Assembly: GCF_017875835.1 (NCBI RefSeq)
Contig: NZ_JAGING010000001.1
Coordinates: 1,550,001-1,614,000, forward strand
Length of the DNA: 64,000 bases
Direction: 5' to 3'
Origin: Psychrobacter sp. PL19
GTDB taxonomy: Bacteria; Pseudomonadota; Gammaproteobacteria; Pseudomonadales; Moraxellaceae
The position numbers and the translations under genes are program-made. Under the pieces are notes generated by a model. That model did no database searches and was not told the DNA's origin. It saw nothing but the letters and a program-made list of their open reading frames with translations. Shown here piece after piece: positions 7,841 through 58,125 of the stretch (positions within the stretch are counted from its first letter, which is position 1; each line of letters begins with the position of its first letter).

Positions 7841-7978
7841 TATAGTTAAAATACCTTAAAAACGCCACGGTACTGCTGGTATAAGCTTTTTGCAGCCTCT
7901 GTCTGCGTAGGCACAGCAAGCAAGAAAAACTTATGCCAGCAGTATGTTATGTATCGATATTACTTTTCATTGACTATA
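7841..7978 (+). repeat. 138-bp MITE-like intergenic repeat, copy A
   Basis: This is the first of four near-identical 138-bp units in the window. It is bounded by TATAGTTAA and TTGACTATA, near-perfect inverted ends. Inside is a long hairpin whose outer stem is TACTGCTGGTATAAG against CTTATGCCAGCAGTA, at 7871-7944. The segment 7887-7921 is identical in all four copies. It contains no open frame of note. It lies between ccoP and ccoG. Confidence 0.85.
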
Positions 7979-8060
7979 CATAAAATATGTTTATTAATAA
8001 CTGATAAGCGTTAATTGTTTAAAACCCTTCACTTAGTAAGCACTATAAAATTGTTTACAT

Positions 8061-8095
8061 AAAAAAGGAGAACTGCAATGACAGTTCTCCTTTTC
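8061..8095. terminator. Terminator downstream of ccoP
   Basis: The stem is AAGGAGAACTG / CAGTTCTCCTT with an A-tract on the plus-strand left side, which reads as a U-tract after the stem on the minus strand. It sits 45 bp past the ccoP stop and should end the ccoNOQP transcript. Confidence 0.85.
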
Positions 8096-8139
8096 TTAAA
8101 TCTTATCATCCTATGATAGAGCAATGTACCCAAGCACTA

Positions 8140-9291
8140 TTAATTAATAGTAGCCGCTGCAGGCACTGCCGCTTTAGGAGCAACAGTATTAACAGGGATT
8201 GAGGTATTGTCAGTTTGGACACCTCGATCCGATAGCGAATACACATACGCAGCAAGTAGCATAATACGCTCATTACCTAGCTTAGTTTCCCACTTCGGCA
8301 TAACGCCTGCACGACCATAACGTAAAGTATTGCGTACTGTTTCGCGCTCACCACCATATAACCAAGTAGTATCAGTTAAGTTTGGCGCGCCCGCTGAAAT
8401 CATACCTTTACCTTCTTTACCATGGCATAGCGCACAATTCTGCTGAAAGATAGCTGAGCCTTGGGCTACTAGCATTTTATCAAGCTCGCCGTTACCCTTG
8501 TCGCCGTCATTAGACGATAGTGATAAGACGTATTCTGATGCTGCTCGTACGCCTTCTTCACCAATTTGATCACGCCAAGCTGGCATACCGCCAACTCGAC
8601 CATTGTGTAACGTGGTCAAAATATTGGTAGCTTCACCGCCATATAACCAATCATTATCGGTTAAGTTAGGGTAGCCTGTGGCACCTTTGGCGTTAGAGCC
8701 GTGACAAACCGAGCAGTTCTGTAAGTATAGGCGACTACCAACTTTTAGTGCATTTGGGTTTTCGGCAAGCTTCTCAACTGCCGGCGCAAGTGCTGCAATT
8801 TTTTCATCGATCTGAGTTTGCAGGTCGGCAGGTGGCGTCTCACTACGACGCATAGTGGCTTGCATATCATTTAGCGTACCCAAGGTCTGGGCCGCACCAG
8901 TGGCATTCGCTTTCACCAAAATACTTTTTTCAAAGTTATCAGTGAAGACTTTGTTGTTTTTCTCAAGCTCACTGAACAATTCGTTGCGAGAGGTCCAAGG
9001 CACGGTTTCGCCATCGACTTCTACGGTGGCGATACCCTCCCAGTGTTTTGGAAACATACCAGGGAAAAATACCCAGTAGGCGACACCCCAAGCGATAGAA
9101 CCGAAAAATATCACTAACCACCATTTAGGTAGCGCCTTGTCATATTCTCGGATACCATCATATTCATGGCCTGTCGTACCATCTTCTTCCACTTCTGGCT
9201 TATACTTCAGTACCATCAATAAGACGCCGAGAATACCCGCCCAACACATAATACTGAGTATGGTGATCCAAGAACTCCAAAAAAATGTCAT
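8140..9291 (-). CDS. ccoP: cbb3-type cytochrome c oxidase subunit III (CcoP)
   Basis: CcoP is the dihaem cytochrome c subunit that passes electrons to CcoO and CcoN. The 383-residue protein has two N-terminal membrane helices (about 4-26 and 54-74). The periplasmic part carries two haem-attachment motifs, CSVCHG near residue 192 and CALCHG near 287. Each is followed by its conserved PNLTDxxWLYGG segment and a distal Met ligand region (GRVGGMPAW and GRAGVMPKW). An Ala/Val/Pro-rich tail ends the protein. It overlaps the end of ccoQ by 4 bp, showing translational coupling. Two haems and two helices are longer than the minimal CcoP and typical of Moraxellaceae and Neisseriaceae-like forms. Confidence 0.96.
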   Translation of the reverse strand: MTFFWSSWITILSIMCWAGILGVLLMVLKYKPEVEEDGTTGHEYDGIREYDKALPKWWLVIFFGSIAWGVAYWVFFPGMFPKHWEGIATVEVDGETVPWTSRNELFSELEKNNKVFTDNFEKSILVKANATGAAQTLGTLNDMQATMRRSETPPADLQTQIDEKIAALAPAVEKLAENPNALKVGSRLYLQNCSVCHGSNAKGATGYPNLTDNDWLYGGEATNILTTLHNGRVGGMPAWRDQIGEEGVRAASEYVLSLSSNDGDKGNGELDKMLVAQGSAIFQQNCALCHGKEGKGMISAGAPNLTDTTWLYGGERETVRNTLRYGRAGVMPKWETKLGNERIMLLAAYVYSLSDRGVQTDNTSIPVNTVAPKAAVPAAATIN

Positions 9292-9473
9292 GGTTTATCC
9301 TTATCACGCTGCTCTTTAGACCAGGCTTCTATATCCTCATCATCAAGCGCAAGTTGTGCATCTTCTTCGAAACGTTTTACATTTTTTGGCGAATACGCCC
9401 ACCATGCAATGCCTACAAAGGCAACAAAGGCGGACACAGTCGCAATAATTTGTAATTCAATAACATTATCCAT
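9288..9473 (-). CDS. ccoQ: cbb3-type oxidase small subunit CcoQ (FixQ)
   Basis: This is a 61-residue single-helix membrane protein. The helix spans about residues 8-27 (IIATVSAFVAFVGIAWWAYS), followed by the characteristic acidic tail with many Asp and Glu. It lies between ccoO and ccoP with 1-bp and 4-bp overlaps, the standard order for this operon. CcoQ stabilises the association of CcoP with the core complex. It is small, and the identification rests on position plus topology. Confidence 0.92.
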   Translation of the reverse strand: MDNVIELQIIATVSAFVAFVGIAWWAYSPKNVKRFEEDAQLALDDEDIEAWSKEQRDKDKP

Positions 9474-10111
9474 TAGCGCTGTCCTTCCATCGCAGTACCC
9501 AGTTGCTGAAGATAGGCAACTAAGGCATCTAGCTCAGTGGCGCCAAGCACAGCATCAGGTGCTCCTGCAATATCTTCTTCAGTGTAAGGTACACCGAAGC
9601 GATCACGGAATAGGCGCATTTTGGATTGAATCTTCGCTCCGCTGACTTCGTTAGTAGCAAGCCAAGGGAAACCGGGCATAATTGATTCAGGGACCAGTGA
9701 GCGTGGGTTAATTAAATGTTGCTTTTGCCAATCCTCAGAGTAACGTCCACCAACTCGTGCTAAATCTGGTCCTGTACGTTTTGATCCCCATAAGAATGGG
9801 TGATCCCACGTCGACTCAGCAGCACGCGAGTAGGGCCCGTAACGCTCAACTTCTGCACGTAATGGACGAACCATTTGGGTATGACAAACATGGCAACCTT
9901 CACGAATGTAGATGTCACGACCTTCAAACTCAAGCGCGGTCCAAGGTTCCATAGACGGTAGAGGCGCATTCACCCCACCATCTTCAGGGCCCTTGTTATC
10001 ATATATCAGCGGTACAATTTCAACTAGCGTTGCAAAGCTAATAGCAATAACGATAAAGATGACCAACAAGCCTGTATTTTTTTCAATAATTTCATGCGGT
10101 GTACCAGCCAT
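9473..10111 (-). CDS. ccoO: cbb3-type cytochrome c oxidase subunit II (CcoO)
   Basis: CcoO is the monohaem cytochrome c subunit of the cbb3 oxidase (212 residues). It has one N-terminal membrane anchor (about residues 12-32). The haem motif [12 protein letters not shown] lies near residue 73, followed by the conserved [11 protein letters not shown] and [17 protein letters not shown] segments. The C-terminal [11 protein letters not shown] helix is also typical. The start ATG lies 9 bp after the ccoN stop, so it is tightly coupled. Electrons flow from CcoP haems through CcoO to the CcoN binuclear centre. Confidence 0.97.
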
Positions 10112-10120
10112 GATCGCTCC

Positions 10121-11602
10121 TTATACGTTAGCAGTCGAGGTTTCATCTACACTAGATTTGTGATCGGTTGGATCCGCAACATCTACAGGTTTACCTTCTG
10201 GCATTTTCAGCGTCCGATAGACGTTATAGGCCATAACAAACATACCTGAGACATAAAGCAAACCACCAAAAGCACGACCAATATATGGGAAATGCGAGAA
10301 CTCAACGGTATCAATGAAGCTATATACTAAAGTACCATCGGGGTTCGTCGCTAACCACATCATGCCCTGACCAATACCTGAGATCCACATTGAGACAATA
10401 TAGAAGATAGTCCCTGCCGTTGCTAGCCAAAAATGCGTCGTGATTAAGCTGATAGAATACATTTTCGGTTTGTTATAAATACGCGGTATTAGTACGTACA
10501 ACGAACCAATGGTAATCATACCAACCCAGCCAAGTGCACCTGAGTGTACATGTCCGATAGTCCAATCCGTATTGTGCGACAGCGCGTTGACCGTCTTGAT
10601 AGACATCATCGGGCCTTCGAATGTTGACATCGCGTAGAACGACAATGCCACAATCATAAAGCGAATAATCGGATCGGTACGTAATTTATCCCAGCTGCCT
10701 GATAGGGTAAGTACACCATTAATCATACCGCCCCAAGAAGGTGCGAATAGAATAATAGAGAATACCATTGCTAGTGACTGTGTCCAATCTGGAAGCGCTG
10801 AATAATGTAAATGGTGACCACCCGCCCACATATAAGAAGCAATTAATGCCCAAAAGTGAACGATTGATAGACGATAAGAATAAATCGGACGACCGATCTG
10901 TACTGGAACAAAGTAATACATCATTCCAAGGAAAGCTGCCGTCAGGTAAAACCCTACCGCATTATGACCATACCACCACTGCACCATCGCATCGGTTGCA
11001 CCACCAAATAATGAGTAAGACTTAAACGCGCTGATAGGAATCGCCATACTATTAACAATGTGCAGTAACGCAATCGTAATAATAAAAGCCGCAAAGAACC
11101 AGTTAGCCACATAGATATGAGAGGTTTTACGCTTGATGAGAGTACCAAAGAAAACAATAGCGTAAGAGATCCACACTAAGGCAATTAGGATATCGATTGG
11201 CCACTCAAGCTCAGCGTATTCTTTGGTCGAAGTCAAACCTAGAGGCAAGGTAATGACGGCCGCTACGATAACCGACTGCCAACCCCAAAAGGTAAACCAG
11301 GCCAAATAAGGGGCGAATAACCGCGTCTTACACGTACGCTGAACGATATAATAAGACGTTGCGAAAAGAGCAGAACCCCCGAACGCAAAAATAACGGAGT
11401 TAGTATGCAGTGGTCTCAGACGACTAAACGTTAGCCATGGGATGTCAAAGTTAAGTGCTGGCCATGCTAACTGTGAAGCAAGGAATACGCCAAGACTCAT
11501 GCCGACGATGCCCCATACTACGGTCATAATCGTAAAAAATCGTATGATAGTGATTTCATACTCACGGTCAACTGGGGCGACTGCTGTGTTTTGTAAACTC
11601 AT
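10121..11602 (-). CDS. ccoN: cbb3-type cytochrome c oxidase subunit I (CcoN)
   Basis: This is the catalytic haem-copper subunit that reduces oxygen to water and pumps protons. The 493-residue protein has about twelve membrane helices. His ligands are seen in [13 protein letters not shown] (low-spin haem), WYGHNAVGF (copper-B site), [14 protein letters not shown] and [11 protein letters not shown] (haem ligands). The Tyr of the [11 protein letters not shown] region suits the C-type family. The ATG has a good ribosome-binding site (AAAGGA). It is first in ccoNOQP. I looked for an FNR/ANR site (TTGAT-N4-ATCAA) in the 260 bp upstream and did not find a convincing one. Confidence 0.97.
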
Positions 11603-12980
11603 TGGATGATTCCTTTACAGCCCGAATTATCAACAGGATTAACTAACTCACCGCAGAGTCTGTGCTATAACAATAAAGTACTGTAAGCAGATAAGAATTG
11701 CGGTACACGCTATTGTCTAACTCTCGTATCACCATGACGGTCTATTAACTATAAAGCTAAGCCTTCATTAGATAGCAGCGGGTAATAATCAGCTGGTACT
11801 AATGATTAGAGAACGGTGCTAAAAATGCACAGGGTTCACAGCTAGTCGATAGTAGGATTGTTAATATGTGGTCAAAGTTAATAAGAAAGTGCACCATCTT
11901 TGAGCATCAAACATTTATTAATGCTGAGTACTTACCTTGGTCGCTACTAATGAAAATAGGGCTAACGAAGATCGATACTGACATCCATTTGGTAACAGAA
12001 GAAATCACTGACTATGGATGTATGCTGATGGCAGCTGACAAAAAACATGTTTAAGTAAGGTTTAGTTAAAACTCCCGACTCTGTTTAAGGGTATTGTAAC
12101 GCAATCTTAAGCAAATATCATCAGAACTATGTGCCAAAATACAAACTCTTTGGTAATTAATTTAGCAGACAACTTATTTTAACAATGCCATCAATACCTC
12201 TCAAACGTGCATTGGCTGCCCATCGTTCACATAAGCGATCATAAATAATAATTTAAAAGTTTGCAGAATATTATTCATTAGCAAGATATGCGTTACGGAT
12301 TAAGATAAATAACCATTTGTAGCCACCAGCGACACAGTTTGGAAGAACAGTGCGTCGCGAAAAATAGTACGTTACACTGACTACTGACTACTGACTACTG
12401 ACTACTGACTGCTGACTGCTGACTATGCTTCGAATTTTGTCAGTAGTCGCCTGTCTGTGAGGCAATAAGCTATGAAATAATAGTTATGTTATGAAGTAAT
12501 AGTTACATTATGTGTAATACTATTACTTTTGCAAGTAATAGCTTCTAGGCTGATAATTCTGGACAGTATAAACGTTACAGTTTAGATGCAGCCAGTTAGA
12601 TGCAGCCAGCTCATTTATCATAACAAAAATAACCAATATATCAACCAGATATTATAGAAATTGATAGTATTATTAAATTCGGTTTAAATTAACAAACATA
12701 ATTGAATTGTCGCAGAGCGGTTAGCGCGCTAGCAATCTGATAAGGGTCTATTAATACGCAGATAAATAAATTTTTAATAGACTTTTGTTACCATTTGGCA
12801 AGCAGTCACGTAAAAGGGTTTTACTTATCATGAAGTCGCCCCTTATAATGAGGTTTAGCATTACCGCTAATAGCAATGACGTTATTAGCAATAATTTAAC
12901 ACTCTTACACTCTTAAGTGTCAGTTGGGTCACTGTAATAAATCTAATTGGCCCAGTATGACAGTCATCAAGGATAATAAT
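11603..12980. other. Long gene-free region
   Basis: This stretch of about 1.4 kb separates the ccoN start (minus) from the SCP2-like gene (plus). It holds only short unsupported frames, among them a 62-codon one at 11866-12054 without a good ribosome-binding site. It also holds a 7-bp tandem repeat at 12376-12424 and a doubled 14-mer TTAGATGCAGCCAG near 12583-12610. Base composition is AT-rich throughout. Promoters for the two flanking genes must lie here. I see no tRNA or recognised structured RNA. Confidence 0.6.
12376..12424 (+). repeat. 7-bp tandem repeat (ACTGACT)x7
   Basis: Five perfect copies of ACTGACT are followed by two GCTGACT variants. The array lies in non-coding DNA about 560 bp before the SCP2-like gene. 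A heptamer period is not codon-compatible, as expected for slippage-prone intergenic DNA. Confidence 0.9.
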
Positions 12981-13370
12981 ATGGCAGTTCTTTTAACAGA
13001 CGCATGGTTTGAGCAAGTTGAAAAGTTAGGTACTGAAGCCGGTGAGCTAAACCTGCCACCGACTCTAGCCAATATGGTCATTAATCTAAAAGTTTCTGAT
13101 GCTGGAAAAGATATTGAGGCCAACTTTACTGATGGTCTACTACATCGTGGTTTAAATGCTGCTGGGAGTACTACCTTGCTACTTGACCATGAAACGTTGC
13201 AATCTATGGTTACTGATTTTGATATGAATCAAATCATGGGCGCATTCATGAGTGGTAAAATTCGTGTTGACGGTGATATGTCACAACTCATGGCACTACA
13301 AACTGCACGCCCGAGTTCAGAACAAAAAGAATTATTCAACCAAATTAAGTCGATGACGACGACTGCCTAA
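12981..13370 (+). CDS. SCP2 sterol-binding-domain protein
   Basis: This is a 129-residue single-domain protein of the SCP2/UbiJ-like lipid-binding fold. Supporting features are an amphipathic start (TDAWFEQVEKLGTEAGELNL) and the late motif IMGAFMSGKIRVDGDMSQLMAL, which matches the conserved G-KIKVEGD-slamrl region of SCP2 domains. The start chosen is the ATG at 12981, preceded by AAGGATAATA. A longer frame opening at 12924 lacks a ribosome-binding site and adds 19 atypical residues. Bacterial members bind fatty acids or polyketide/sterol-like ligands; the specific ligand is unknown. A bidirectional terminator follows. Confidence 0.8.
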   Translation: MAVLLTDAWFEQVEKLGTEAGELNLPPTLANMVINLKVSDAGKDIEANFTDGLLHRGLNAAGSTTLLLDHETLQSMVTDFDMNQIMGAFMSGKIRVDGDMSQLMALQTARPSSEQKELFNQIKSMTTTA

Positions 13371-13478
13371 TAACTCGTTGTTAAAAAACACTCAGTCATA
13401 GTGTTGGTTGTACATCTGGATCTATGTATTCTATGTGTTCTGAGTTTTTTTAGCATCAAGTCAGCATGAAATTAGCAC

Positions 13479-13512
13479 AAAAAAGCCCCTAACGAGTGTT
13501 AGGGGCTTTTTT
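13479..13512. terminator. Bidirectional terminator
   Basis: A strong stem AGCCCCTAAC / GTTAGGGGCT with GAGT loop is flanked by an A-run on the left and a T-run on the right. It sits between the convergent SCP2-like gene (plus) and the unknown gene at 13543 (minus) and can serve both. Confidence 0.93.
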
Positions 13513-13542
13513 CAGATTAAAGGTTGACGACCAGGATAGTAT

Positions 13543-14499
13543 CTATCCTGCTGTGCTCTGATTGTCTTTATAGATAGCAGCTTGTAGCCAAATATTGGCC
13601 TGTACGTAGTCATGGACTTGGATGGCTTGAGTACCCGCAGTACTCACCGCGCCCATGCGTACCACGAACGGATCAGCATCTTGTTCACGCAATATCACCA
13701 CATCAAATAAAATAATAGGTTTGCCATTAAACAAGGTTTCTTGTTTGCCAAGCACCTGTCCTTGACACCAGGCTTCATCTTCTTGCCCTAAGGTGTCGCC
13801 AAACAGATACGCGCACATATGGCCCAAGTTAATCTCTACCGGTGCCATTTGTTCTTGAGTTTCTGGCTGCCAGCCTTTGATTTGCTCTTGGATATCACTT
13901 GGAACTTGACCATCATTAGCCGCGACAATATCGTTAAAAGCACGGTGGTAGCGAATAGCTTCTTGATCCTCAACCATAATAACTTCATTTTGCTCGCTGA
14001 GCGTAATCTCATGCGCCCAGGCACTGAAGTTTACAAAATATGAGGTGCTTTGTTGATATAGGTGACGATTAGCGGTGTAAAGCTGATCAAAGGCATAAAT
14101 AATACTGCCATCAGCACTGCGAAGGCGCAGTACGGTATCGTGCGAACTATCATTGACGATCATGCGCTCTATAGTACAGGTGAGACCATACGGGCCATCA
14201 ACACAAGGGTATGCGTTGATAAAACGTTCAGGCTTACCGTCTTTCATCGCTAGCACTTGATTGATATGGCAAGGTTGGTCTTCTGAGAGCAGCAGTCGAT
14301 TGTCTTTGGAGCTGACATTACCATTGAGGCCTTTGGGCATTGCTGCCTGCTCAATCATTTGTTGTAACCATTGCGGTACATCATGACCCATATCATCGGT
14401 TAAAATACGCCAATGATCCGCATGACCGGCAGCTTGTTCGTCGGTTAAAGTAATTTTAGTAGGAGATTGTATGTTTTTATATTGATAATTGATGGTCAT
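13543..14499 (-). CDS. Conserved-looking protein of unknown function
   Basis: I do not recognise the family. The chosen ATG at 14499 gives a 318-residue soluble protein with no signal peptide or membrane helix. A longer frame from 14526 has no ribosome-binding site, whereas 14499 has a TTGAG 8 bases upstream. The composition is acidic and Gln-rich with even coding character throughout, so it is very likely a real gene. The middle part has alternating beta-like segments (DTVLRLRSADGSIIYAFDQLY). It stands alone between a terminator and a 500-bp gap, which suggests its own promoter. Its role is not inferable from sequence or context. Confidence 0.7.
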   Translation of the reverse strand: MTINYQYKNIQSPTKITLTDEQAAGHADHWRILTDDMGHDVPQWLQQMIEQAAMPKGLNGNVSSKDNRLLLSEDQPCHINQVLAMKDGKPERFINAYPCVDGPYGLTCTIERMIVNDSSHDTVLRLRSADGSIIYAFDQLYTANRHLYQQSTSYFVNFSAWAHEITLSEQNEVIMVEDQEAIRYHRAFNDIVAANDGQVPSDIQEQIKGWQPETQEQMAPVEINLGHMCAYLFGDTLGQEDEAWCQGQVLGKQETLFNGKPIILFDVVILREQDADPFVVRMGAVSTAGTQAIQVHDYVQANIWLQAAIYKDNQSTAG

Positions 14500-15024
14500 G
14501 AAGATACTCAAAATTAAGTCAGCCATGAAGTTTGGACGCCAAACTGTGGTCGCTCATGGTTTAACCAATCACCAATCACCAATCACTGTATCATTTATTT
14601 TTGGATAAATAGCTACGGATGGATAAGTAATATTGGGTTATGACATGTCGCAACGTCACTAGTAAAGGGTCTGCAAACAACAATGATGGGTTAATGACAA
14701 TTGTCCCTAGCATACAATATATAGGTATAGACGCAACTAATAGCAAGCCCCTCGCGGAAAATAAAAATAGAGCACGATATTTTAATAAAAAATCCGGTCA
14801 GTTTTTGCTAATGACTGGCACATGTCAGCCAAATTGTGTCAAACTATCCCCCTTTTGACAGTCCCAGCTAGGTAAATAGTTAGATGAATAGCTGGCCTAT
14901 CTAAAACCATATTTGTGTGTTCAGTTTATGTATTGATATGACGGATATAATGCATGACGCATTTAATACCATTAGTGTTATAGCATATTTAGAGTCACAC
15001 GTAGATTAGATAAAGAGTTTGAAT
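14500..15024. other. Divergent intergenic region
   Basis: This is about 500 bp between the unknown minus-strand gene and the plus-strand lol genes. It includes three tandem CACCAAT units near 14568-14588. A 72-codon frame at 14640-14858 has no ribosome-binding site and atypical composition, and I do not call it. No terminator or RNA gene is evident. Confidence 0.5.
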
Positions 15025-16260: not shown

Positions 16261-16390
16261 CATATAACACAACTAATATCGCGACTAACTAATAGCGCGA
16301 CTATAAGACAACATGGTTATAAATTTCACATATCAATGTTGATTGGATTTGACGGTAAGTAACAGCATAATTAATAATAAAGGAAACCGT

Positions 16391-17071
16391 ATGTCTGTCA
16401 TTTTAGAAGCAAGCAATATCAGTAAGATATATGATGAAGGGGCCGTACGTACGCAAGTGCTGACTGGTTTGGACCTTACCGTTACTCCTGGCGAGCGTAT
16501 CGCTATCGTCGGTACCAGCGGCTCGGGTAAAAGCACCTTATTGCACTTATTAGGAGGGCTTGACACGCCAACCAGTGGCGAAGTGTGGCTACATGGTAAG
16601 TGCCTCAATCATATGAATGAAACCGAGCGAGGCGCAATGCGTAATCAATACTTGGGTTTTATTTATCAGTTCCATCATCTGTTGGCAGAGTTTACAGCGG
16701 TAGAAAACGTCGCTATGCCGCTACTGATGCGTCCACAAGTGTCAACCACTGATGCACGCAAGCAAGCGACTGAATTATTAGAAAATGTAGGCCTAGGGCA
16801 CCGTTTAGACCACAGACCAGGCGAGCTATCCGGGGGCGAGCGTCAGCGTGTGGCTATTGCACGCGCTCTGGTGACCAAGCCGTCAGTAATTTTGGCAGAT
16901 GAGCCAACTGGTAATCTAGATTATGATAACGCGCAAAGCGTCTTTGGCTTACTCACCGAACTACAAACCACCATGAAAACCGCATTACTGATGGTGACGC
17001 ATGATCGTAATTTGGCTGCGCTTGCTGATCGTCAATTGTTGTTACGTAATGGACACTGGGAAAACTATTAA
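16391..17071 (+). CDS. lolD: Lipoprotein-releasing system ATP-binding protein LolD
   Basis: This is the cytoplasmic ATPase of the lipoprotein-releasing ABC transporter, 226 residues. It shows Walker A ([16 protein letters not shown]), a Q-loop region with the LolD-typical [15 protein letters not shown], the ABC signature [15 protein letters not shown], Walker B ([12 protein letters not shown]) and the H-loop MVTHD. The start is the ATG at 16391 behind AAAGGAAA; the in-frame ATG 48 bases earlier has no ribosome-binding site. It follows the lolC/E permease by 130 bp on the same strand. The pair forms one functional unit. Confidence 0.96.
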
Positions 17072-34794: not shown

Positions 34795-34847
34795 TATTGA
34801 GTATTAACGCTATAGCTGTAAAAACGCTATAGCGTTAATACTCAATA
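34795..34847. repeat. Perfect 22-bp inverted repeat with 9-base loop
   Basis: The left arm at 34795-34816 (starts TATTGAGTATTAACGC) is the exact reverse complement of the right arm at 34826-34847. The loop is TGTAAAAAC. It is in the 5' region of the lipase-like gene (minus strand). No T-run follows on either side in the right place for a terminator. It might be an operator, an RNA hairpin, or a remnant of a mobile element. Confidence 0.9.
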
Positions 34848-34920: not shown

Positions 34921-35058
34921 TATAGTTAATGAAAAGTAATATCGATACATAACCTACTGCTGGCATACGTTTTTCTTGCTTGCTGTGCCTACGCAGACAG
35001 AGGCTGCAAAAAGCTGATACCAGCAGTACCGTCGCGTTTTTAAGGTATTTTAACTATA
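34921..35058 (-). repeat. 138-bp MITE-like intergenic repeat, copy B
   Basis: This copy is in the opposite orientation to copies A, C and D. The ends are TATAGTTAA and TTAACTATA, a perfect 9-bp inverted repeat here. It is located between the gcvP terminator and the lipase-like gene. Confidence 0.87.
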
Positions 35059-41332: not shown

Positions 41333-41341
41333 AAAGCCCTA

Positions 41342-41700
41342 TCTGTCCTGTGACCTGAGATTTTCAACACGTTCCATACTTTATGCACACTCAATATGAG
41401 ATGCATACTCAATATGAGTCAGCTTTAGTATAAGCTTAAAACTCATAAGCCTAAAGCATATGGTAACGCATTTTCTCCCCTTCGGTGGGTAAGGCGTCGT
41501 CCGTCCTTACCGCTCTCCAGATTTGTTATGCGATGATATGAGTTATTGCAGAAAGCAAATAAATATAGCAGGCATGTGTTTTTCAGTCCTTTTACCTGAG
41601 CGATTAGCAGGGTAGATGCGCCTTCGGTGGTCTCATAGCAAATAGTGACGGCTGAGCTGCGTACAATAAACGCGGCGTCTTGCTATAATACTCTCTCCTG
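41342..41700 (-). promoter_or_regulatory. Tandem glycine riboswitch upstream of gcvT
   Basis: On the minus strand, two aptamers follow each other. Aptamer I (about 41583-41700) begins CAGGAGAGAG, holds GACCACCGAAGGCGCA and ends CTCAGGTAAAAGGACTG. Aptamer II (about 41342-41520) begins CTGGAGAGCG, has GCGGTAAGGACGG closed by CCTTACC, then CACCGAAGGGGAGAA, and ends CTCAGGTCACAGGACAG. These core blocks are the glycine aptamer signatures, and a linker of about 60 bases joins the two domains. Aptamer II carries an unusually long arm between its CACCGAAGG and CTCAGG blocks, near 41358-41470. In known systems glycine binding turns on gcv expression; the fit to gcvT is direct. Confidence 0.95.
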
Positions 41701-41712
41701 AAAAACGCTTTT

Positions 41713-42656: not shown

Positions 42657-43397
42657 ATGGACTGGATAAAAAATCTTCTACAAATCTTACCATTAGAAAC
42701 TATCAGTGACATTCTCGGCGAGATTGTCATTTGGTGGAGTCAGATGGTCAAAGACGTGCCACCCGCCGACCTACCGATGTATGCCTATCTGGGCGGCGCT
42801 ATTATAGTATTGATACTCTGGGTACTGGTCGCACGAATGTTACCACGCCCGCTCGGTGGTATGAGTTGGATGGTATTATTTGCAGTTTTATTATCTCCTA
42901 GTACTGCGCTTGGTGACTCCAGTTTGCTTGCGCCAGCAAGTATCAGTGTTATCTATGCGATTATGATGAAGGATATTGCCACTGCTGTCACCAATGCGCT
43001 ACCTATACTGGTAGTGCTAGTGGTAGGCTTATTCATCGGTTTTGTCTGGCAGCTTATACGTGGTGCTATTGAGTCGAGCTTAGCCAAAGCACGTCGGTAC
43101 ACTGCTGAAGACACTCAAGCAACTATGCAACTGGCGACGGGTAATTATCTAATAACAGATACTGATGAGCCGTTACTAGCCGTTGTTCCTACTACTGATA
43201 TCAATCTACAAAAAGACAGTGAGCTACAAAAAAGCACTCTTATTAAAAAAGACAGCATCATTAAAAAAGACAGCACCGTTAAAAAAGACAGCATCATTAA
43301 AAAAGACAGCACCGTTAAAAAAGACAGTGCTAAGATACCGATGGTTAAAAAGCCTACAGTAATAGCTAATAATGATTTGATAGACAAAGAGCCATGA
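42657..43397 (+). CDS. Membrane protein with KKDS repeat tail, unknown function
   Basis: I do not recognise this family. The 246-residue protein has hydrophobic segments at about 42-62, 68-90 and 115-140. A cytoplasmic linker follows and then a repetitive C-terminal tail. The tail carries units KKDSII and KKDSTV in alternation (residues about 196-225), encoded by an 18-bp repeat with 36-bp higher order. The tail is strongly basic and Ser-rich. The ATG at 42657 has only a weak ribosome-binding site. It is followed by a probable terminator. It may be a lineage-restricted envelope protein. Confidence 0.7.
   Translation: MDWIKNLLQILPLETISDILGEIVIWWSQMVKDVPPADLPMYAYLGGAIIVLILWVLVARMLPRPLGGMSWMVLFAVLLSPSTALGDSSLLAPASISVIYAIMMKDIATAVTNALPILVVLVVGLFIGFVWQLIRGAIESSLAKARRYTAEDTQATMQLATGNYLITDTDEPLLAVVPTTDINLQKDSELQKSTLIKKDSIIKKDSTVKKDSIIKKDSTVKKDSAKIPMVKKPTVIANNDLIDKEP
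43242..43331 (+). repeat. 18-bp tandem repeat x5 (KKDS-coding)
   Basis: Five 18-bp units, ATTAAAAAAGACAGCATC and GTTAAAAAAGACAGCACC type, alternate to give a 36-bp higher-order period. Each unit contains an A6 run. Copy number changes would keep the frame, whereas A-run slippage would shift it. Confidence 0.92.
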
Positions 43398-43585: not shown

Positions 43586-43723
43586 TATAGTTCAAATACC
43601 TTAAAAACGCTAGGGTACTGCTGATATAAGATTTTTGCAGCCTCTGTCTGCGTAGGCACAGCAAGCTAGAAAAACGTATGCCAGCAGTATGTTATGTCTC
43701 GATATTACTTTTCATTGACTATA
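43586..43723 (+). repeat. 138-bp MITE-like intergenic repeat, copy C
   Basis: This copy has the same 138-bp length and internal core as the others. The ends are TATAGTTCA and TTGACTATA, one end slightly diverged. It lies between the KKDS-repeat gene and the MoxR gene. Confidence 0.87.
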
Positions 43724-50874: not shown

Positions 50875-51159
50875 AGCAACGCTCAACTATAAAACATAGA
50901 TATTAAAAAACGCAGTAATTATTAATGATAGATAAAAGCGGCCTATCTCAACCATCAGTATTGATGACTCAGAATTCAGCCGGTTTTAATCTTAACTTAT
51001 AATTGCCGCGCATGTTATACGTCTATGATATCACGGCTTAGGAATAATTGAGTAATGACATGCTCATGTTGGTATTATCACAGTAAATCTACTAAATTAT
51101 TTCCGTATTTATAACTTCTCATCCAACAGCTTATCTGGTGCAAGGCTTTGTATAATAAT

Positions 51160-53289
51160 CTAACTAAAATATGTTTCTTTACATCTATTAGTAAGTTCGT
51201 TTCTTATACGACCATCACTTTCATCTGTATCTTTTATTATAAGACCCATATCCCGAAGCTTACTAGTACGTTTTCCTACTAGTTGATGAGTAGTATCAAT
51301 TAAAGCAGATATCTCACCTGCTCTCATCTTTTTCTCCTCATCGTTTATTGCACTTATAATTTCCAATTCAACAGGCTCTAACATTATTTCTTGATTAAGC
51401 TTTTCTACCTCTTCTTTAAAGTCGTCAGAAAGGTTCGTTATTTCACATAGTCCTTCTGAGCACGTAGGGCATTTCCACTTATACAATTCTAAACTCGGCC
51501 TTAAGTCCATAGGATGACAAGTCCCACAACTGTTGCATTTGATTGTAGAGTTTTTGGAAAGAAATTGATGAACTGCTCTTGTATATTCAAAGCACCTTTG
51601 TTGAAAATAATGTCTAAAATGTCTGCCTAAAGGATACCCCCAAGCCATGCGTTCACTTTCACATAGGCCTAGGAAAAATGCATATACAATAACATCGTTA
51701 CCATTTTTATCTCTCATATTCTTATATCTTGATAAAAAAAAGTTAGATTCCAATGATGAAAATACATCTTCCAATTCAGGGCTTACAGTGAAATGGCTTG
51801 TTGGAGGAACTCCCTGTAATTCTGAAAAATAATTACCTCCAACTTCGTTACTAGTGATCTTTCTTCTAACGCTTATAGCTTCTTGAATAAGAGATTTCAA
51901 AAGTTCATTTTGGTTATGTCTATCTAACTTGTTTTCAAAAGGCTCAAGAGCATATCTATTAAATCTATCAAAATACTTTTTAATAGTACTTTCATAATAT
52001 TTTTTCGAAGCTAATTTGATAGAAGCCGAGGTTATTTTCTGAGATTTGGATACTCGATCTAAGTACAACGTTTGCAGAAGATAGCCTATTATTCTAGGAA
52101 CATTGAATGAAGCTTGGAAGATAGACTTCATTAACTCTGCTCGTTCTTCGTCAGTAGTAAAATCAAAGTAATCCTCTAACTCTACATCAAAAGCTTTGAA
52201 TCTTGTCTCTAAAAGTCTGTAAGCATAATCAGAAGCTGACTTTTCCATCTCTTGGACTTCAGAAGCCTCGTATAAATCTGAAAAATCTAAACTTATTGTA
52301 TCTGCTTTGCTAGGGTCGATTCTTCCATAATAGACCCTGCCAGGGTATGCGGCTACTTTTAGCTTTACTTTCTCATTACTTGAATTGTTCAATGGTGACA
52401 ACACAACATCTACGAATAACCTCTGATCTATAAAGCTTAGCTCAGAAAAATCATCGAAAAAAACAACTAATCTTGACATTCCTGATTCAGAAATAAGAGT
52501 TTGAATATCTTCGATTATTTTATTAAAAGGAAATGATTTCAATACAATATCTGAATATTCATTATATATTTCATTATCGTCTAAAGTCTTATCAAAGTCA
52601 GTGTAAGAACTACTAGCCTCACCATTTAGTTCTATATTTGTCGGAGTAACTCTACCATTAGCTTTTACAGAACTGGTGCTTCCTTGAGAGTTTTCTTGTT
52701 GCTGTTTTATTCTTATTTGACGACTAATTTTTTGAAGTATAGGAATTTCGTGTTGTTCTAGTTTTGCACTTTTTACTTGTCTAGCTACTTCATTTAAGCT
52801 CAACATGAGTTCTTCATACTGATGCTTAATTCCTTTCCAACGTTCTAAGAGTGTTAGTTTACTACTGCTAACTTCGATTTCTTTCAAGAGTTCTGCAATA
52901 ATTCGTCCGAGTATTGCTTTTCTTAATAAGTGAGAGCGGAATGTAATAAGAGATATGTTATAAGAACTTAAATTAGTAGAATCTGCTTCAGTAGCGTCTA
53001 ATACATCAACGAGAGATTTAACATCTATATACACTGATATTATATCTTTTTCATTGCGCAACACTGATTGTGCTTTAGCGAATACCGTACTTTTACCAGT
53101 ACCCTTCCTACCTATTAAAAAAGTTGTATTGCTAGATAATATTGAATTGAGTACTGCATTTCCAGGTAATGCATCAACATAAAGCTGATCTATAGGTTTA
53201 GCTCCTATATCTCTTTCAAAATCCTTAAGTTCAGCTCTTCTATATTGTCTTAACGATTCAGCAATTTTAGATAATTTTTCTACATCCAT
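51160..53289 (-). CDS. P-loop ATPase with zinc ribbon and winged-helix tail
   Basis: This is a 709-residue protein, markedly more AT-rich in its codons than its neighbours. The N terminus is helical and charged (1-50). Walker A is FLIGRKGTGKSTVF at residues 57-70. A long, mostly helical stretch with Gln/Lys (about 150-215) precedes a Walker-B-like RLVVFFDDFSEL near residue 275. A middle helical part follows, then a four-Cys zinc ribbon CNSCGTCHP...KCPTC near 583-612. The C-terminal winged helix (about 640-700) contains MRAGEISALIDTTHQLVGKRTSKLRDMGLI. The overall plan resembles poorly characterised P-loop ATPases of the Sll1717 type. The gene is isolated, with a GGAGAATAG ribosome-binding site. 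Possible roles are phage defence or DNA/RNA handling; neither is shown. Confidence 0.75.
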   Translation of the reverse strand: MDVEKLSKIAESLRQYRRAELKDFERDIGAKPIDQLYVDALPGNAVLNSILSSNTTFLIGRKGTGKSTVFAKAQSVLRNEKDIISVYIDVKSLVDVLDATEADSTNLSSYNISLITFRSHLLRKAILGRIIAELLKEIEVSSSKLTLLERWKGIKHQYEELMLSLNEVARQVKSAKLEQHEIPILQKISRQIRIKQQQENSQGSTSSVKANGRVTPTNIELNGEASSSYTDFDKTLDDNEIYNEYSDIVLKSFPFNKIIEDIQTLISESGMSRLVVFFDDFSELSFIDQRLFVDVVLSPLNNSSNEKVKLKVAAYPGRVYYGRIDPSKADTISLDFSDLYEASEVQEMEKSASDYAYRLLETRFKAFDVELEDYFDFTTDEERAELMKSIFQASFNVPRIIGYLLQTLYLDRVSKSQKITSASIKLASKKYYESTIKKYFDRFNRYALEPFENKLDRHNQNELLKSLIQEAISVRRKITSNEVGGNYFSELQGVPPTSHFTVSPELEDVFSSLESNFFLSRYKNMRDKNGNDVIVYAFFLGLCESERMAWGYPLGRHFRHYFQQRCFEYTRAVHQFLSKNSTIKCNSCGTCHPMDLRPSLELYKWKCPTCSEGLCEITNLSDDFKEEVEKLNQEIMLEPVELEIISAINDEEKKMRAGEISALIDTTHQLVGKRTSKLRDMGLIIKDTDESDGRIRNELTNRCKETYFS

Positions 53290-53476
53290 TTCTATTCTCC
53301 AATAATTGAGAGTGCCTAACTACCTTCATATGTCATCAGTACGCACAAGATTCCAAAAAACGATAAGTAAAACTTTCAAACTTTAAGGAAAGACCTACGA
53401 GGGTATGTTGCTAACCATAGGTTATAGCATGCTTAGATAGCCTTAACACAGATATTTAGTGAAATTTGAGCCTAAT

Positions 53477-54064
53477 TTACGCACAGCCTTCTTGTGACAT
53501 CAATCCATCTTCGTTACCAATATTTATATTGATGACGACATCATGGTTTAAATTATATCGGGTACCGACACGCCGCCCATTTTCTATAGTCCAATAGTAC
53601 ATATTAATGAGTTTTTCATCAGGACCGCTAAAAGGGCTGTCGATGATTTCTGGCGTCTGGCCTTGGTGCTTAGCATAGACTTGGCTAAGACTGTCACCAA
53701 CCTTAACACCAGAAGCAGATGGAATATCTGAATCATTGATAGTTATTTTGACGACTTTATCATCTATGATTAGATAATTAGCAGCCAGTATGGCTTTATT
53801 TTCGGCTGAAAAACAACGGTCAAAATTTGAGGGGGATTTGTTCAGCTTTTGCAAGTCAAAAGTATCCCCAATTTTTGTGCTACCGATGCTATCTTTAGTA
53901 AAAATATTAGGAGAAGAGATATCCATAGTGGTGCGGTCATCAACCCTAACTTTAGTATCGGTACCGGTTATAGTATCTGATGATGGCGCACAGGCTGTGA
54001 GACTAAGTAGCAGGACAGTTAGCAATCCTGTCATCTGGTATAAGCTAGAATATAAAGCCATCAT
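53477..54064 (-). CDS. Lipoprotein of unknown function
   Basis: This is a 195-residue protein with a lipoprotein signal peptide: hydrophobic LLTVLLLSLTAC with the lipid Cys near residue 25, then a Ser/Thr/Asp-rich linker. The mature part includes FDRCFSAENKAILAANYLIIDDKVVKITINDSDIP and ends GLMSQEGCA. The repeated KIGDTFD and KVGDSLSQVY segments look like the paired GD-S turns of small periplasmic domains. I cannot name the family. It lies between the AT-rich ATPase and the IclR regulator. Confidence 0.7.
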   Translation of the reverse strand: MMALYSSLYQMTGLLTVLLLSLTACAPSSDTITGTDTKVRVDDRTTMDISSPNIFTKDSIGSTKIGDTFDLQKLNKSPSNFDRCFSAENKAILAANYLIIDDKVVKITINDSDIPSASGVKVGDSLSQVYAKHQGQTPEIIDSPFSGPDEKLINMYYWTIENGRRVGTRYNLNHDVVININIGNEDGLMSQEGCA

Positions 54065-54176
54065 TATCTGTCCTAGTTTTTAAAGCTATAGCCTTTTACT
54101 ATAGATAACTCTTTATTAAAGTTAATTTGATCTTTTTTATAGTTGGAGCTGTTATCTTTCTTGTTAAGAAACCGAT

Positions 54177-55004
54177 CTATGCTCCGCGACCAATCCTCTC
54201 AGCAAGTGCCTGTAACTTGGGTACAATCATCGCCACATAGTCTTCTGCTTCCCAGTTGGCACGGGGCACGCTAGCATTCAGTGAATAAGCATAGTGTCCA
54301 GTTGTTACATCAAAGACACCGACTGCCACTGCCAGAATATCTGTAGAAAACTCGCCATCGGACAGCGTATAGCCATGAGTCTCATAATACTGCGATGCAT
54401 GAGTTAACGCCGTTTGTGCTGGTCCAAAATCTTCGACAGATAAACTTGCTTGCAGATTGGAGGTAATTGCCGCTTGTCTGGTAGATGAGCTGACGGCATA
54501 AAACGCGCGCCCTATAGCGGTTCGAGCGATCGGTACCGCTGAGCCCACTTGCAAGTTTACCGATAGACGTGCTGGACTTCGGTAACAGGCTAAATAACGC
54601 ATTTCACCTTCGATTTCTTTGGCCAGATTCACCGATACTTCATTTTGTGTGGCGAATTGGCGTAATAGTGGTTCAGCAAATGCCACCACATCATGACGGC
54701 TCCACGCTTGAGCGCTCAGTTGCACTGCGCTACTGGCCAATTGATACTGTCCATGCGCCATCGTCCGCAAAAAACCAAGCGTCATCAAGGTATAGATTAG
54801 GCGAGTAACGGTCGCTTTTGGCAAAGTGGTCAGTTGGCATAACTGCTGATGGCTGAGTTGTTCATGATGTTCAAATGCAGCCAGCAATGTCAATCCGCGG
54901 CCAAGAGCCGTGACGAACTGCCGATCTTCAGCTGCCTTGCTTTGGACTAGCCTATCATTCATTTGATCTAACAGCGATACGGGTGTTGCTAGGTGTTTTG
55001 TCAT
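54177..55004 (-). CDS. IclR-family regulator (divergent from gcdH)
   Basis: This is a 275-residue IclR-type transcription factor. An N-terminal winged helix-turn-helix (about 28-90: LGRGLTLLAAFEHHEQLSHQQLCQLTTLPKATVTRLIYTLMTLGFL in separate pieces) is followed by the effector domain. That domain shows NEVSVNLAKEIEGEMRYLACYRSP, VGSAVPIARTAIGRAFYA and SDGEFSTDILAVAVGVFD. It is divergent from gcdH with a 230-bp gap that holds a 13-bp palindrome, so it is the likely regulator of gcdH and the CoA-transferase. The effector may be glutarate or a related acid. The ATG start is typical. Confidence 0.88.
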   Translation of the reverse strand: MTKHLATPVSLLDQMNDRLVQSKAAEDRQFVTALGRGLTLLAAFEHHEQLSHQQLCQLTTLPKATVTRLIYTLMTLGFLRTMAHGQYQLASSAVQLSAQAWSRHDVVAFAEPLLRQFATQNEVSVNLAKEIEGEMRYLACYRSPARLSVNLQVGSAVPIARTAIGRAFYAVSSSTRQAAITSNLQASLSVEDFGPAQTALTHASQYYETHGYTLSDGEFSTDILAVAVGVFDVTTGHYAYSLNASVPRANWEAEDYVAMIVPKLQALAERIGRGA

Positions 55005-55071
55005 TTTATAACCATATATTAGGATAAAGGTTTACAGCAGACCTGATTTCTGCTTAAATGGTTAATATTAT

Positions 55072-55084
55072 GAAACTAAGTTTC
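55072..55084. promoter_or_regulatory. Candidate IclR operator in the gcdH promoter region
   Basis: GAAACT-A-AGTTTC is a perfect 13-bp palindrome in the gap between the divergent IclR gene and gcdH. IclR proteins bind short palindromes of this size. The link is by position only. Confidence 0.45.
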
Positions 55085-55233
55085 GCATAGCAGAACAAAT
55101 TATTCAAGTGAAAATATCTACAGTATTAAATATTTAAACTACTAAGCCTTTAAAGTATTAAGTCAGCGTCAAACATTCAGATAAGTCAAAATACTATTCG
55201 TCAGTCAGGATGACTGACACCAAGGAGCACAGC

Positions 55234-56418
55234 ATGGCAAACTCTACTAGTCCACGTTTTGATTGGGAAGACCCTTTTTTATTGCGCGATCAGTTGACCG
55301 ACGAAGAACGTATGGTTACTGATACTGCTCACCAGTTTTTTCAAAAAGAATTAATGCCGGGCATCATTGAAGCCAACCGTAATGAGCATTTTGATCGCAA
55401 TATTATGCGTCAAATGGGTGAAATGGGCTTGCTGGGCGTCACGATTGACGGCTATGGCTGTGCTGGCTTGTCGAGTGTTGCCTACGGTCTGCTCGCCAAA
55501 GAAGTGGAAGCGGTTGATTCAGGCTATCGCTCAGCAATGAGTGTGCAATCAAGTTTGGTTATGCATCCAATATATGAATATGGTACTGAAGAGCAAAGAG
55601 AAAAATATTTGCCTAAACTGGCGACTGGCGAATACGTGGGCTGCTTTGGTCTGACTGAACCGGACTCAGGCTCAGATCCATCATCGATGTCAACGCGCGC
55701 CCGCAAAGTCGCTGGCGGCTATGAGGTGACCGGTAACAAAATGTGGATCACCAACAGTCCGATCGCCGATGTATTTGTGGTTTGGGCGAAAGATGATGAA
55801 GGTTTGATTCGTGGCTTTATTTTAGACAAAGGTATGAAAGGCTTATCTGCTCCCAAAATTGAAGGTAAATTCTCGTTACGTGCCTCAGTTACTGGTGAGA
55901 TTGTCATGGACAAAGTATTCGTCCCTGAAGCCAATGCCTTTCCAGATATTCGCGGCCTTAAAGGTCCCTTTGGTTGCTTAAATAAAGCCCGTTATGGCAT
56001 TGCTTGGGGCACGATGGGCGCGGCTGATTTCTGTTGGAAGGCTTCGCGCCAGTACACCCTTGATCGTATTCAATTTGGACGTCCGCTAGCGGCCACCCAA
56101 TTGGTACAGTTAAAACTTGCCAATATGCAAACTGAAATCACCTTTGGTCTACAAGCGGCGCTACGTGTCGGACGCTTGATGGATGAAGATAACGCTGCAC
56201 CTGAAATGATTTCGATGATCAAACGTAATAACTGTGGCAAGGCGCTAGATATTGCTCGGGTTGCCCGTGACATGCATGGTGGTAACGGTATCTCTGATGA
56301 GTATCATATTATTCGCCACGTGATGAATTTAGAAGCGGTCAACACTTATGAAGGCACACACGATATCCATGCTCTTATCCTAGGCCGTGCTCAAACAGGC
56401 ATCCAAGCATTTTATTAA
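55234..56418 (+). CDS. gcdH: Glutaryl-CoA dehydrogenase
   Basis: This FAD acyl-CoA dehydrogenase oxidises and decarboxylates glutaryl-CoA to crotonyl-CoA in lysine catabolism. The ATG at 55234 is chosen because AAGGAG lies 6 bases upstream; the ATG at 55210 would add 8 residues with no site. The resulting 394 residues match the family length. Landmarks are [56 protein letters not shown], and the catalytic Glu in [20 protein letters not shown] near residue 371. It is followed by a terminator, then the CoA-transferase gene. The adjacent class III CoA-transferase supports the glutaryl-CoA assignment. Confidence 0.95.
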
Positions 56419-56504
56419 TTTATATTTTGCATAAGGTGTTTTGCATAAGGTATTTTGTATGAGTGTTTAGCAGTGTTTAAATTACTGCCAATCACCAACT
56501 ACTA

Positions 56505-56564
56505 GCGTACGTCACTGTTTAGCTGTTCATTCAGCACTTAGCATTCAGTAACGTACGTTTTTTT
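56505..56564 (+). terminator. Terminator after gcdH
   Basis: CGTACGT pairs with ACGTACG, extended by ACTG/CAGT with one mismatch, enclosing a long loop. Seven T residues follow. It separates gcdH from the CoA-transferase gene and indicates partial or complete termination between them. Confidence 0.6.
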
Positions 56565-56676
56565 GTGGTTCATTATTAAAACTTATATAAATAACTAAAG
56601 CCCCCAGTACAAAAGCATAATAAAACAGGTTGAGAAACTGACTAGAGGGTAAAGGACGACTAAATAAGGGAATATT

Positions 56677-57975
56677 ATGACCATAATATCGCCGCAGACT
56701 GAGCAACAGCAGCCTAGCAGTAATACTAATAATGATTCTAATAGCAATAAAGATAATAGTAGTAACGACGCTAATAATAAGCAAGCGGCACGAGGTGCAT
56801 TGCACGGTATCAAGGTGCTGGACTTATCTAGAGTGTTGGCCGGGCCATCGTGTACTCAGATTTTGGCTGATTTGGGGGCAGAAGTGATTAAGGTTGAACG
56901 TCCACGTATCGGTGATGAGACCCGACATTGGGCGCCGCCAGCTTTTAGCGATGATACCTCAGCATACTATGCCACCATCAACCGCAATAAAAAATCACTC
57001 ACTGTTGATATAACCACTCCAGCGGGACAGACCATTATTAAAAAAATCGCCGCTGATAGCGATATTGTGGTGGAAAACTTTAAAGTCGGGGGTCTGCAAA
57101 AATACGGTTTGGATTACGACAGTCTTAAACAGACCAATCCGCAACTGATTTATGCCTCTCTTACTGGTTTTGGACTGACAGGACCTGATGCCAAGCGACC
57201 CGGTTATGACTATATTATTCAAGGCTTATCAGGCTTGATGAGTATCACTGGGCCTAGCGATGGTGAGCCGTATAAGGTCGGGGTCGCAGTGGTAGATTTG
57301 TTTGCCGGACTGCAGCTCACTATCGGCATACAAGCGGCGCTGTTAGCACGGCAACATACTGGACGTGGACAGCAAGTTGATGTGGCGTTATTTGATAGTG
57401 CATTGGCGCTGCTGGCCAATGTTGGTATGAATCATTTAGCCTCAGGCGAGGTGCCACCAAGATTGGGCAATCAACATCCCAATATTGTCCCTTATCAAGT
57501 GTTCTTGGCTGCGGGCGAGCAACATTTTATTTTGGCTTGTGGTAATGATCAACAGTTTGCCAAGCTTTGTCAGGTCTTAGATGTCAATTGGCAGCAGGAC
57601 AGCCGTTTTACTACCAATCCTGCGCGGGTCGTCAATCGTGAGTTGCTATGCGGCTGGCTAGTGGATAAGTTTGCACAACAGTCGCGTGCACATTGGTTAG
57701 AGGTTTTGCAGCAAGTAGGCATTCCGAGTGGTGCGATTCATAATGTCTCTGAAGCCTTAGCCATGCCGCAAACACAGGCTCGAGAAATGGTGATTGATTT
57801 TACGGCACAAGGCAGCCCAGTCAGAGCATTAGGCAACCCCATCAAACTATCTGAATCACCTGTCACGTACCGATCGCCACCGCCGAGTCTGAGCGAACAT
57901 ACCGATAGCACGCTCGCAGCGCTTGGTTACGATAGTGAGATGATCGCTAAGCTAAAAGCGGACGGTATTGTTTAA
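56677..57975 (+). CDS. CaiB/BaiF-type CoA-transferase, probably succinyl-CoA:glutarate
   Basis: This is a class III (family III) CoA-transferase of 432 residues. The first 36 residues are Asn/Ser/Gln-rich and probably disordered. The domain begins LHGIKVLDLSRVLAGPSCTQ. The catalytic Asp is in KRPGYDYIIQGLSGLMSITG near residue 182. Other landmarks are VGVAVVDLFAGLQLTIGIQAAL and GQQVDVALFDSALALLANV. Because gcdH is adjacent, the best substrate guess is glutarate with succinyl-CoA as donor, as in the SUGCT family. This would feed GcdH. The ATG follows AAGGGAA. Confidence 0.88.
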   Translation: MTIISPQTEQQQPSSNTNNDSNSNKDNSSNDANNKQAARGALHGIKVLDLSRVLAGPSCTQILADLGAEVIKVERPRIGDETRHWAPPAFSDDTSAYYATINRNKKSLTVDITTPAGQTIIKKIAADSDIVVENFKVGGLQKYGLDYDSLKQTNPQLIYASLTGFGLTGPDAKRPGYDYIIQGLSGLMSITGPSDGEPYKVGVAVVDLFAGLQLTIGIQAALLARQHTGRGQQVDVALFDSALALLANVGMNHLASGEVPPRLGNQHPNIVPYQVFLAAGEQHFILACGNDQQFAKLCQVLDVNWQQDSRFTTNPARVVNRELLCGWLVDKFAQQSRAHWLEVLQQVGIPSGAIHNVSEALAMPQTQAREMVIDFTAQGSPVRALGNPIKLSESPVTYRSPPPSLSEHTDSTLAALGYDSEMIAKLKADGIV

Positions 57976-57987
57976 GCGTTTATGAGC

Positions 57988-58125
57988 TATAGTCAAAATA
58001 CCTTAAAAACACTAGGGTACTGCTGGTATAAGCTTTTTGCAGCCTCTGTCTGCGTAGGCACAGCAAGCAAGAAAAACGTATGCCAGCAGTAGGTTATGTA
58101 TCGATATTACTTTTCATTGACTATA
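57988..58125 (+). repeat. 138-bp MITE-like intergenic repeat, copy D
   Basis: This is the best-preserved copy, with ends TATAGTCAA and TTGACTATA as an exact 9-bp inverted repeat. It lies 13 bp after the CoA-transferase stop, between convergent genes. Confidence 0.88.

Follow-up and report, generated by a model that had tools for sequence, protein, structure and literature searches.

A TA-targeting 138-bp repeat family with a covarying internal hairpin in the genus Psychrobacter

Four copies of a 138-bp element in the window

The DNA analysed here (the window) is a stretch of 64,000 nucleotides of Psychrobacter sp. PL19, bases 1,550,001 to 1,614,000 of the 3.12-Mb chromosome. It carries four copies of a 138-bp element that we assign to the miniature inverted-repeat transposable elements (MITEs). 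Copy A is found at 7841..7978 on the plus strand, with the TA at each end (the duplicated target) included. Copy B (34921..35058, minus strand) lies between two minus-strand open reading frames (ORFs) and copy C (43586..43723, plus strand) between two plus-strand ORFs. Copy D (57988..58125, plus strand) lies between convergent ORFs, 12 bp past the stop codon of ORF 56677-57975. The initial annotation had listed four copies of exactly this length, and they can be aligned over 138 bp with no gap; their flanks do not align. All four are intergenic as proposed, since no ORF of at least 90 amino acids overlaps any of them. The genome has 16 matches to PF13358 (DDE_3) and none is in the window, in line with the earlier statement that no transposase is encoded there.

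The terminal regions of copy A, each about 28 bp long and similar to IS630 ends, occupy 7841..7868 (left, plus strand) and 7951..7978 (right, minus strand). The ends do pair as had been described. The terminal 9-mers are perfectly matched in copies B and D and show one mismatch in copy A, but the two mismatches in copy C exceed the single one that had been allowed for. Inside the ends of copy A lies a hairpin on the plus strand with a covarying stem of 22 pairs. Its left arm is at 7870..7891 and its right arm at 7924..7945. The apex (GCAGCCTCTGTCTGCGTAGGCACAGCAAGC, 7892..7921) is separated from the right arm by two unpaired bases, and it is common to sibling elements with other ends. By alignment of the four copies, the apex was placed at 34978..35007 (minus strand) in copy B, 43637..43666 (plus strand) in copy C and 58039..58068 (plus strand) in copy D.

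A 35-bp core (7887-7921 in copy A) is identical in all four copies, as had been noted, and the contrast with the varying outer parts is partly luck. Closer study was carried out on 93 distinct copies of the own genome chosen by their right end. In this sample 81 copies are gapless 138-mers and the other 12 have indels, are truncated or look mosaic; reverse-strand copies from the later chromosome are under-represented, and copy B is not among the core sites listed. The exact 35-mer core is present in 43 of the 81 gapless copies, which were picked by the right end and not by the core. It is the best kept of 75 tested 35-base windows in this set (0.53, the others 0.10 to 0.52).

None of the four copies matched an Rfam family at the gathering score, and copy D at a lax threshold gave one chance-level match (E 0.69). 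The sole Rfam matches in the window are two adjacent glycine riboswitch aptamers at 41333-41710 on the minus strand. An 18-nt tandem repeat (43210-43335) is located within ORF 42657-43397, just upstream of copy C. By eye, TTGAGTATTAACGCTATAGC and its complement form an inverted repeat of roughly 20 bp beside copy B, at about 34795-34846.

Spread, mobility and a candidate IS630 partner

The search of the whole genome and of other Psychrobacter genomes showed that the element is multi-copy and genus-wide. With up to three mismatches allowed, the 35-mer core has 142 sites in the own genome (75 forward, 67 reverse) and the reversed pattern has none, so the repeat family is not due to chance. An independent right-end pattern also gave 142 sites (74 and 68) and zero in its control. 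The 138-bp query matched 77 of 100 genomes of the genus, and a 30-base core (up to three mismatches) was present in 67 of 105, the own genome included in both cases. Outside the genus, the same 30-base core was absent from all 243 genomes searched in 15 further genera of the family, and a 28-base core form from all 368 genomes searched elsewhere in the class. Scanning named genome contigs for an exact 25-mer gave at least 120 stretches; the 80 listed are all from Psychrobacter. Viral contigs (exact 25-mer), plasmids and phages gave no match. Core sites are most numerous in genomes G096 (343) and G043 (265); yet just three PF13358 matches (best E 2.5e-8) were obtained in G096.

Empty sites were found in relatives. 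The 200-bp flanks of 173 of the 184 collected copies were joined with one TA and searched for in all DNA collected by that point, which gave 29 junction-spanning matches, some repeating one copy and some lying inside the copy's own locus. Six insertions were aligned. L100 and L177 are clean to the base, L098 is consistent, L095 approximate, and L101 and L079 could not be read. The P. glacincola copy L100:6049-6186 is filled and the site in G058 (L064) is empty, at 94% identity over 403 bp. The copy L177:6966-7103 interrupts another repeat and was compared with five intact copies of that repeat. Each of the two comparisons shows a single TA in the empty site and a TA on either side of the element in the filled one. 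The copy L098:1001-1138 is nested in a sibling element and is consistent with this but not clean, as four siblings compared at the insertion place have TA in two cases and CA in two. A sibling element of about 156 bp gave the same single-TA picture between G002 and G094 (92% identical over the aligned stretch).

For the window copies, copy A is absent from the collinear site in G002, where the flanking genes are 83-84% and the joined flanks 72% identical; the left flank has diverged too far for the junction to be read to the base. At copies B, C and D the neighbour genes are conserved in G002 and G094 and the intergenic DNA is too diverged to compare. Copies in G041 (L063), G073 (L068) and G042 (L078) have near-identical flanks and apparently descend from one old common insertion, with decayed outer ends.

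The empty sites show that TA is duplicated. Since both copies of the duplicated TA are counted in the 138 bp, the element itself measures 134 bp. Its size, the 142 sites, the pairing 9-bp ends, the lack of a transposase gene and the filled and empty sites are those of a MITE, and it is near certain that the element is a mobile, TA-targeting one. It is non-autonomous and seems incapable of moving by itself. The outermost TA had been ascribed to the duplicated target of a Tc1/mariner- or IS630-type transposase; the empty sites, together with IS630-family elements with similar ends in the same genome, support this.

Seven of the PF13358 matches belong to one 915-bp element, which probably moved recently, since its copies differ at 0-2 positions. 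It carries an ORF matching HTH_Tnp_IS630 and, in another frame, one matching DDE_3; such separate frames are common in IS630 elements that use frameshifting. Its ends are TATAGTCAATTTCCTTTAAAAATG and TATAGTCAATTCAAAATAAAAGTG. They begin TATAGTCAAT / TATAGTCAATT, and the bases that follow are partly similar to those of the 138-bp element. As to an IS630 element with the same ends, TATAGTYAA is common to both, the next bases agree partially, and there is no full identity. After TATAGTY, 14 of 21 bases of the family's left end agree with the first of these ends, as seen in L265 (p about 0.0002 by shuffling), and 13 of 21 bases of its right end agree with the second (p about 0.01 by shuffling), p-values that are uncorrected for the 12 insertion sequence (IS) copies and the end pairings compared. 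In 26 of 30 IS630 loci of the genus, TATAGT and ACTATA stand about 880-920 bp apart around the transposase. The L265-type element matches 49 plasmid records, of which 2 cover at least 80% of the query and 5 are from Psychrobacter. No full-length IS with the exact 138-bp ends was seen by eye among 134 left ends examined with the 1.4 kb behind each, where the 8 left ends lacking a right end at 100-180 bp were the ones inspected.

By these end similarities IS630 is the likely driver of the 138-bp MITE. A transposase of the IS630 type, produced from another chromosomal locus, would bind the terminal regions of about 28 bp and cut at TAGT...ACTA, and the element would then insert at a TA and duplicate it; both the choice of enzyme and the proposed cutting step are deduced from the likeness of the ends. 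Two points tell against this assignment. Even the best resident ends agree at only those 14 and 13 positions beyond TATAGTY, and the actual partner may therefore be a different element or one that has died out. Core sites also occur in several genomes with no PF13358 match, for example G033 (40 sites), G073 (35), G042 (25), G050 (17) and G018 (11); the copies there may be left over. Both points would also fit a transposase of another family as the driver. We consider that very unlikely, given the TA duplication, the TATAGT ends common to IS630 elements in the 26 loci above and the sibling ends, which also resemble IS630 ends.

Covariation, strand asymmetry and decay of the hairpin

The core lies in a long hairpin as had been proposed, with a covarying stem of about 22 bp and an apex motif of AGCCTCTG...(A/C)ACAGCAAGC. 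In the collected DNA 217 core-bearing elements were found, and both ends could be set for 198. The left end is of the main type in 143 of these and not in 55. At least 23 of the 55 match neither main-family end at the cut-off used; the rest include elements whose right end is main-like and main-family copies whose ends are decayed or mis-set. True siblings, often 144-146 bp long, combine the same apex with different stems and with other IS630-like ends. Most sibling loci were fetched via the core and therefore give no measure of core conservation. A looser search found 231 hairpins, 22 of them with other terminal loops between AGCCTCTG and (A/C)ACAGCAAGC. Two own-genome copies, L319 and L329, look mosaic by eye (left arm sibling-type, right arm main-family), which suggests recombination inside the hairpin. 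In L304, also of the own genome, three sibling-type ends of other elements are found within about 1.3 kb.

Covariation of the stem is strong, with changes on both sides in 18 of 22 pairs. This was scored on 37 hairpins whose stems have less than 85% identity to one another, in which pairing holds for 88% of 810 cells. They give a covariation score of 0.462, compared with 0.078-0.128 when the partners are slid, and 0 of 500 shuffles reach the observed values; the tested stem was derived from the same sequences and so had an advantage over the slid versions. RNAalifold, with the stem not supplied, recovered 18 of the 22 pairs.

Pairing by itself is also what a plain MITE relic would show, in which the hairpin has no role, is a fold-back from the origin of the element, and is kept paired by palindrome correction (template switching between the arms) or by recombination among copies. 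Long near-palindromes can be corrected by template switching between their arms, and the mosaic look of L319 and L329 fits recombination. Private changes in the own genome, spread almost evenly over the element, are also in keeping with a relic. The strand makes the difference, because a palindrome maintained as DNA should have equal numbers of G·T and A·C mismatches, as the correction is strand-blind. In non-redundant subsets of about 84, 34 and 11 sequences, G·U and A·C mismatches stood at 118:41, 51:19 and 17:7 (means of 20 draws). Hairpins with a different arm offset or with fewer than 12 of 20 Watson-Crick pairs (28 of 217) were excluded.

The G·U excess in standing mismatches could partly be base composition, and changes were counted instead in 106 disjoint closest pairs out of 218 hairpins with the same exclusion. 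Single-step changes between Watson-Crick pairs and G·U numbered 94 and those involving A·C numbered 40 (p 2e-6). The ratio was 46:25 from G-C pairs (p 0.008) and 48:15 from A-U pairs (p 2e-5). Other positions show a strand-biased mutation spectrum (C/T 178, A/G 110). Such a bias would shift the G-C and A-U results in opposite directions; the excess holds in both. In the own genome, private changes gave 13 G·U against 6 A·C. A strand-blind correction does not account for the excess in both kinds of pair. The relic also has to explain an apex shared by elements with strongly different stems, many of which were fetched through that apex. We consider the relic a rather unlikely explanation.

These counts suggest that one strand, in the orientation of the core, is constrained as a folded single strand, most simply as RNA. 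The strand asymmetry alone does not separate RNA from DNA: folded single-strand DNA also tolerates G·T better than A·C. The hairpin may thus be a single-strand DNA signal in transposition or replication, as in the IS200/IS605 or REP systems. We think this quite unlikely, as the TA duplication and the inverted-repeat ends like those of the resident IS630 point to a double-strand DDE mechanism, and to our knowledge HUH systems do not duplicate a target. The core had been suggested to be either a transposase-binding region or an RNA. Its position at the hairpin tip, its occurrence in elements with different ends and the G·U excess favour a structured nucleic acid over the first option; a transposase site would be expected in the outer 28 bp or so, where the likeness to IS630 lies.

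Core variants shared by at least three own copies are few, at 4 in 35 sites compared with 42 in 74 sites elsewhere (p 0.0002). In-place selection on the core was also considered and is unsupported, with p 0.21 for singletons and p 0.16 for changes found in no more than two copies. Flanks of at least 600 bp were available for 91 own copies, of which 5 overlap an ORF and 2 have no flanking ORF. By simple ORF calls made with no gene finder, convergent ORFs flank 41 of the other 84, tandem ORFs 39 and divergent ORFs 4. The background of convergent gaps (at least 40 bp) is 7 of 46 in the window, 16 of 112 in G002 and 11 of 88 in G094. The distance to a gene end reading toward the element is 30 bp or less in 23 of 122 cases.

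These positions, with a hairpin that covaries with strand asymmetry, would suit an RNA used by the host, in which copies are kept in place as 3'-end structures (a terminator, an mRNA stabiliser or an RNase III site) like the Correia/NEMIS or ERIC transcripts. Promoter avoidance would give the same convergent bias, however, and explains the excess with no need for a role of the hairpin. No T-run follows the hairpin, copies between tandem genes have no orientation bias, and singletons are not significantly fewer in the core. A host-used RNA is in our judgement unlikely. A promoter at the right end, with TTGACT as the -35 box, was examined and rejected: a -10-like hexamer (at least 4 matches) is present at promoter spacing in 33 of 92 copies compared with about 18% further downstream, and position by position there is at most a slight rise at spacings 13-17.

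The nearly even decay, the scarcity of common variants in the core and the lack of orientation bias to tandem genes suggest that selection acts on the spreading lineage, and that individual copies decay nearly neutrally. The hairpin would be selected as a folded single strand in the lineage that is still transposing, most likely as RNA from read-through of neighbouring transcription. Single copies would then drift, and insertions in promoter regions would be lost, leaving copies commonest between convergent and seldom between divergent genes. Several results weigh against selection on the hairpin. In addition to the derivation of the stem noted above, the hairpin set was collected mostly via the core sequence. 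Independent columns would already give 352 G·U to 240 A·C, where 237:101 was observed. The common variants of the own genome, at 8 G·U and 8 A·C, lack the excess, as a plain relic would have it. The singleton rate in the core (17 in 35 sites) is not significantly below that elsewhere (47 in 74, p 0.21), and the copies between tandem genes are 21 sense and 18 antisense. With these points taken into account, it is probable that the hairpin is under selection in its folded, single-stranded form. Our overall reading, to which we give good confidence, is a non-autonomous MITE of the IS630/Tc1-mariner type whose hairpin is selected in this form.

More tentatively, the hairpin may be an RNA module that travels: a single structured hairpin, its internal-loop apex conserved, was adopted by several IS630-type MITE ends within one genus and is kept, folded as a single strand, on one strand only. 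We regard this as conceivable, though well short of an even chance. If true, a MITE spreads a functional RNA part with exchangeable ends around it, and that part would be bound by a protein or a nuclease, easing tolerance of insertions or aiding the element. With hundreds of copies in each of two other genomes searched (G096 and G043), several end types around one apex and resident IS630 elements, the genus is well suited to tests of mobility and of the hairpin role.

Comparison with known bacterial repeat families

The element was not named in the listed titles and abstract openings examined, which came mostly from literature outside subscription journals. Among the closest parallels by description are the Correia elements (CREE/NEMIS) of Neisseria, which according to the parts of the sources consulted are 69-151 bp long, intergenic and present in more than 100 copies, with a repeat that starts with tatagt (PMC5039591). 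They have a terminal TA and a target duplication, and RNA stem-loops with RNase III processing have been proposed for them (PMC2229807, seen in part). The 138-bp family differs in that its own ends diverge from the Correia repeat beyond TATAGT, one apex occurs with several kinds of ends, and IS630 elements with similar ends are resident. The Correia repeat (tatagtggattaa...) was not found at both ends of the 138-bp family. A 20-base Correia stretch (up to 4 mismatches) gave 53 distinct matches in the collected loci; several are sibling or IS630 ends, and by eye none is a main-family end. The sibling MITE L182 begins TATAGTGGATTAAATATAAA, with 19 of 20 bases as in the Correia repeat, and the IS630 end TATAGTGTATTAAATATAAA of L231:1409-2325 (G010) has 18 of 20 bases as in the Neisseria repeat. 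Such near-identical ends hint that Correia elements may be IS630-type MITEs.

REP/REPIN sequences with their RAYT, in the excerpts available, resemble the 138-bp element in having many short extragenic hairpins per genome. REPs, by contrast, are 20-40 bp palindromes tied to a REP-associated tyrosine transposase, and the 138-bp element has IS630-like ends and a TA duplication, the latter arguing against a REP/REPIN assignment. Within the Moraxellaceae, MITEAba12 is 111-114 bp long and makes a 9-bp target duplication. Unlike the element described here it has ISAba12-type ends and a different transposase (PMC6382973, in the portion consulted). The ERIC/IRU repeat of enterobacteria is described, in the portions of the sources consulted, as a 127-bp intergenic repeat with short terminal inverted repeats, a terminal TA and a target duplication (PMC3049150, PMC2229807). 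It belongs to a different host group and is likened here by description, not by sequence.

RUP of Streptococcus pneumoniae is 107 bp long, with 108 intergenic copies, IS630-Spn1-like ends and a TA target, and has been proposed to be mobilised by IS630-Spn1 (PMC2229807). The part of that source consulted reports RUP as having no other signatures of structure or function, whereas the 138-bp element has a covarying, strand-asymmetric hairpin. Whether hairpins of bacterial MITEs are selected or are by-products is, as we see it from the partial sources above, a live question for Correia, RUP and ERIC alike. Strand-asymmetric covariation is a simple sequence test that can be applied to each of these families. 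By analogy with what is described in the portions consulted, the architecture of the 138-bp element is of the Correia/RUP/ERIC kind of bacterial MITE: under 200 bp, with TA ends and target duplication, and with stem-loop transcripts in those families.

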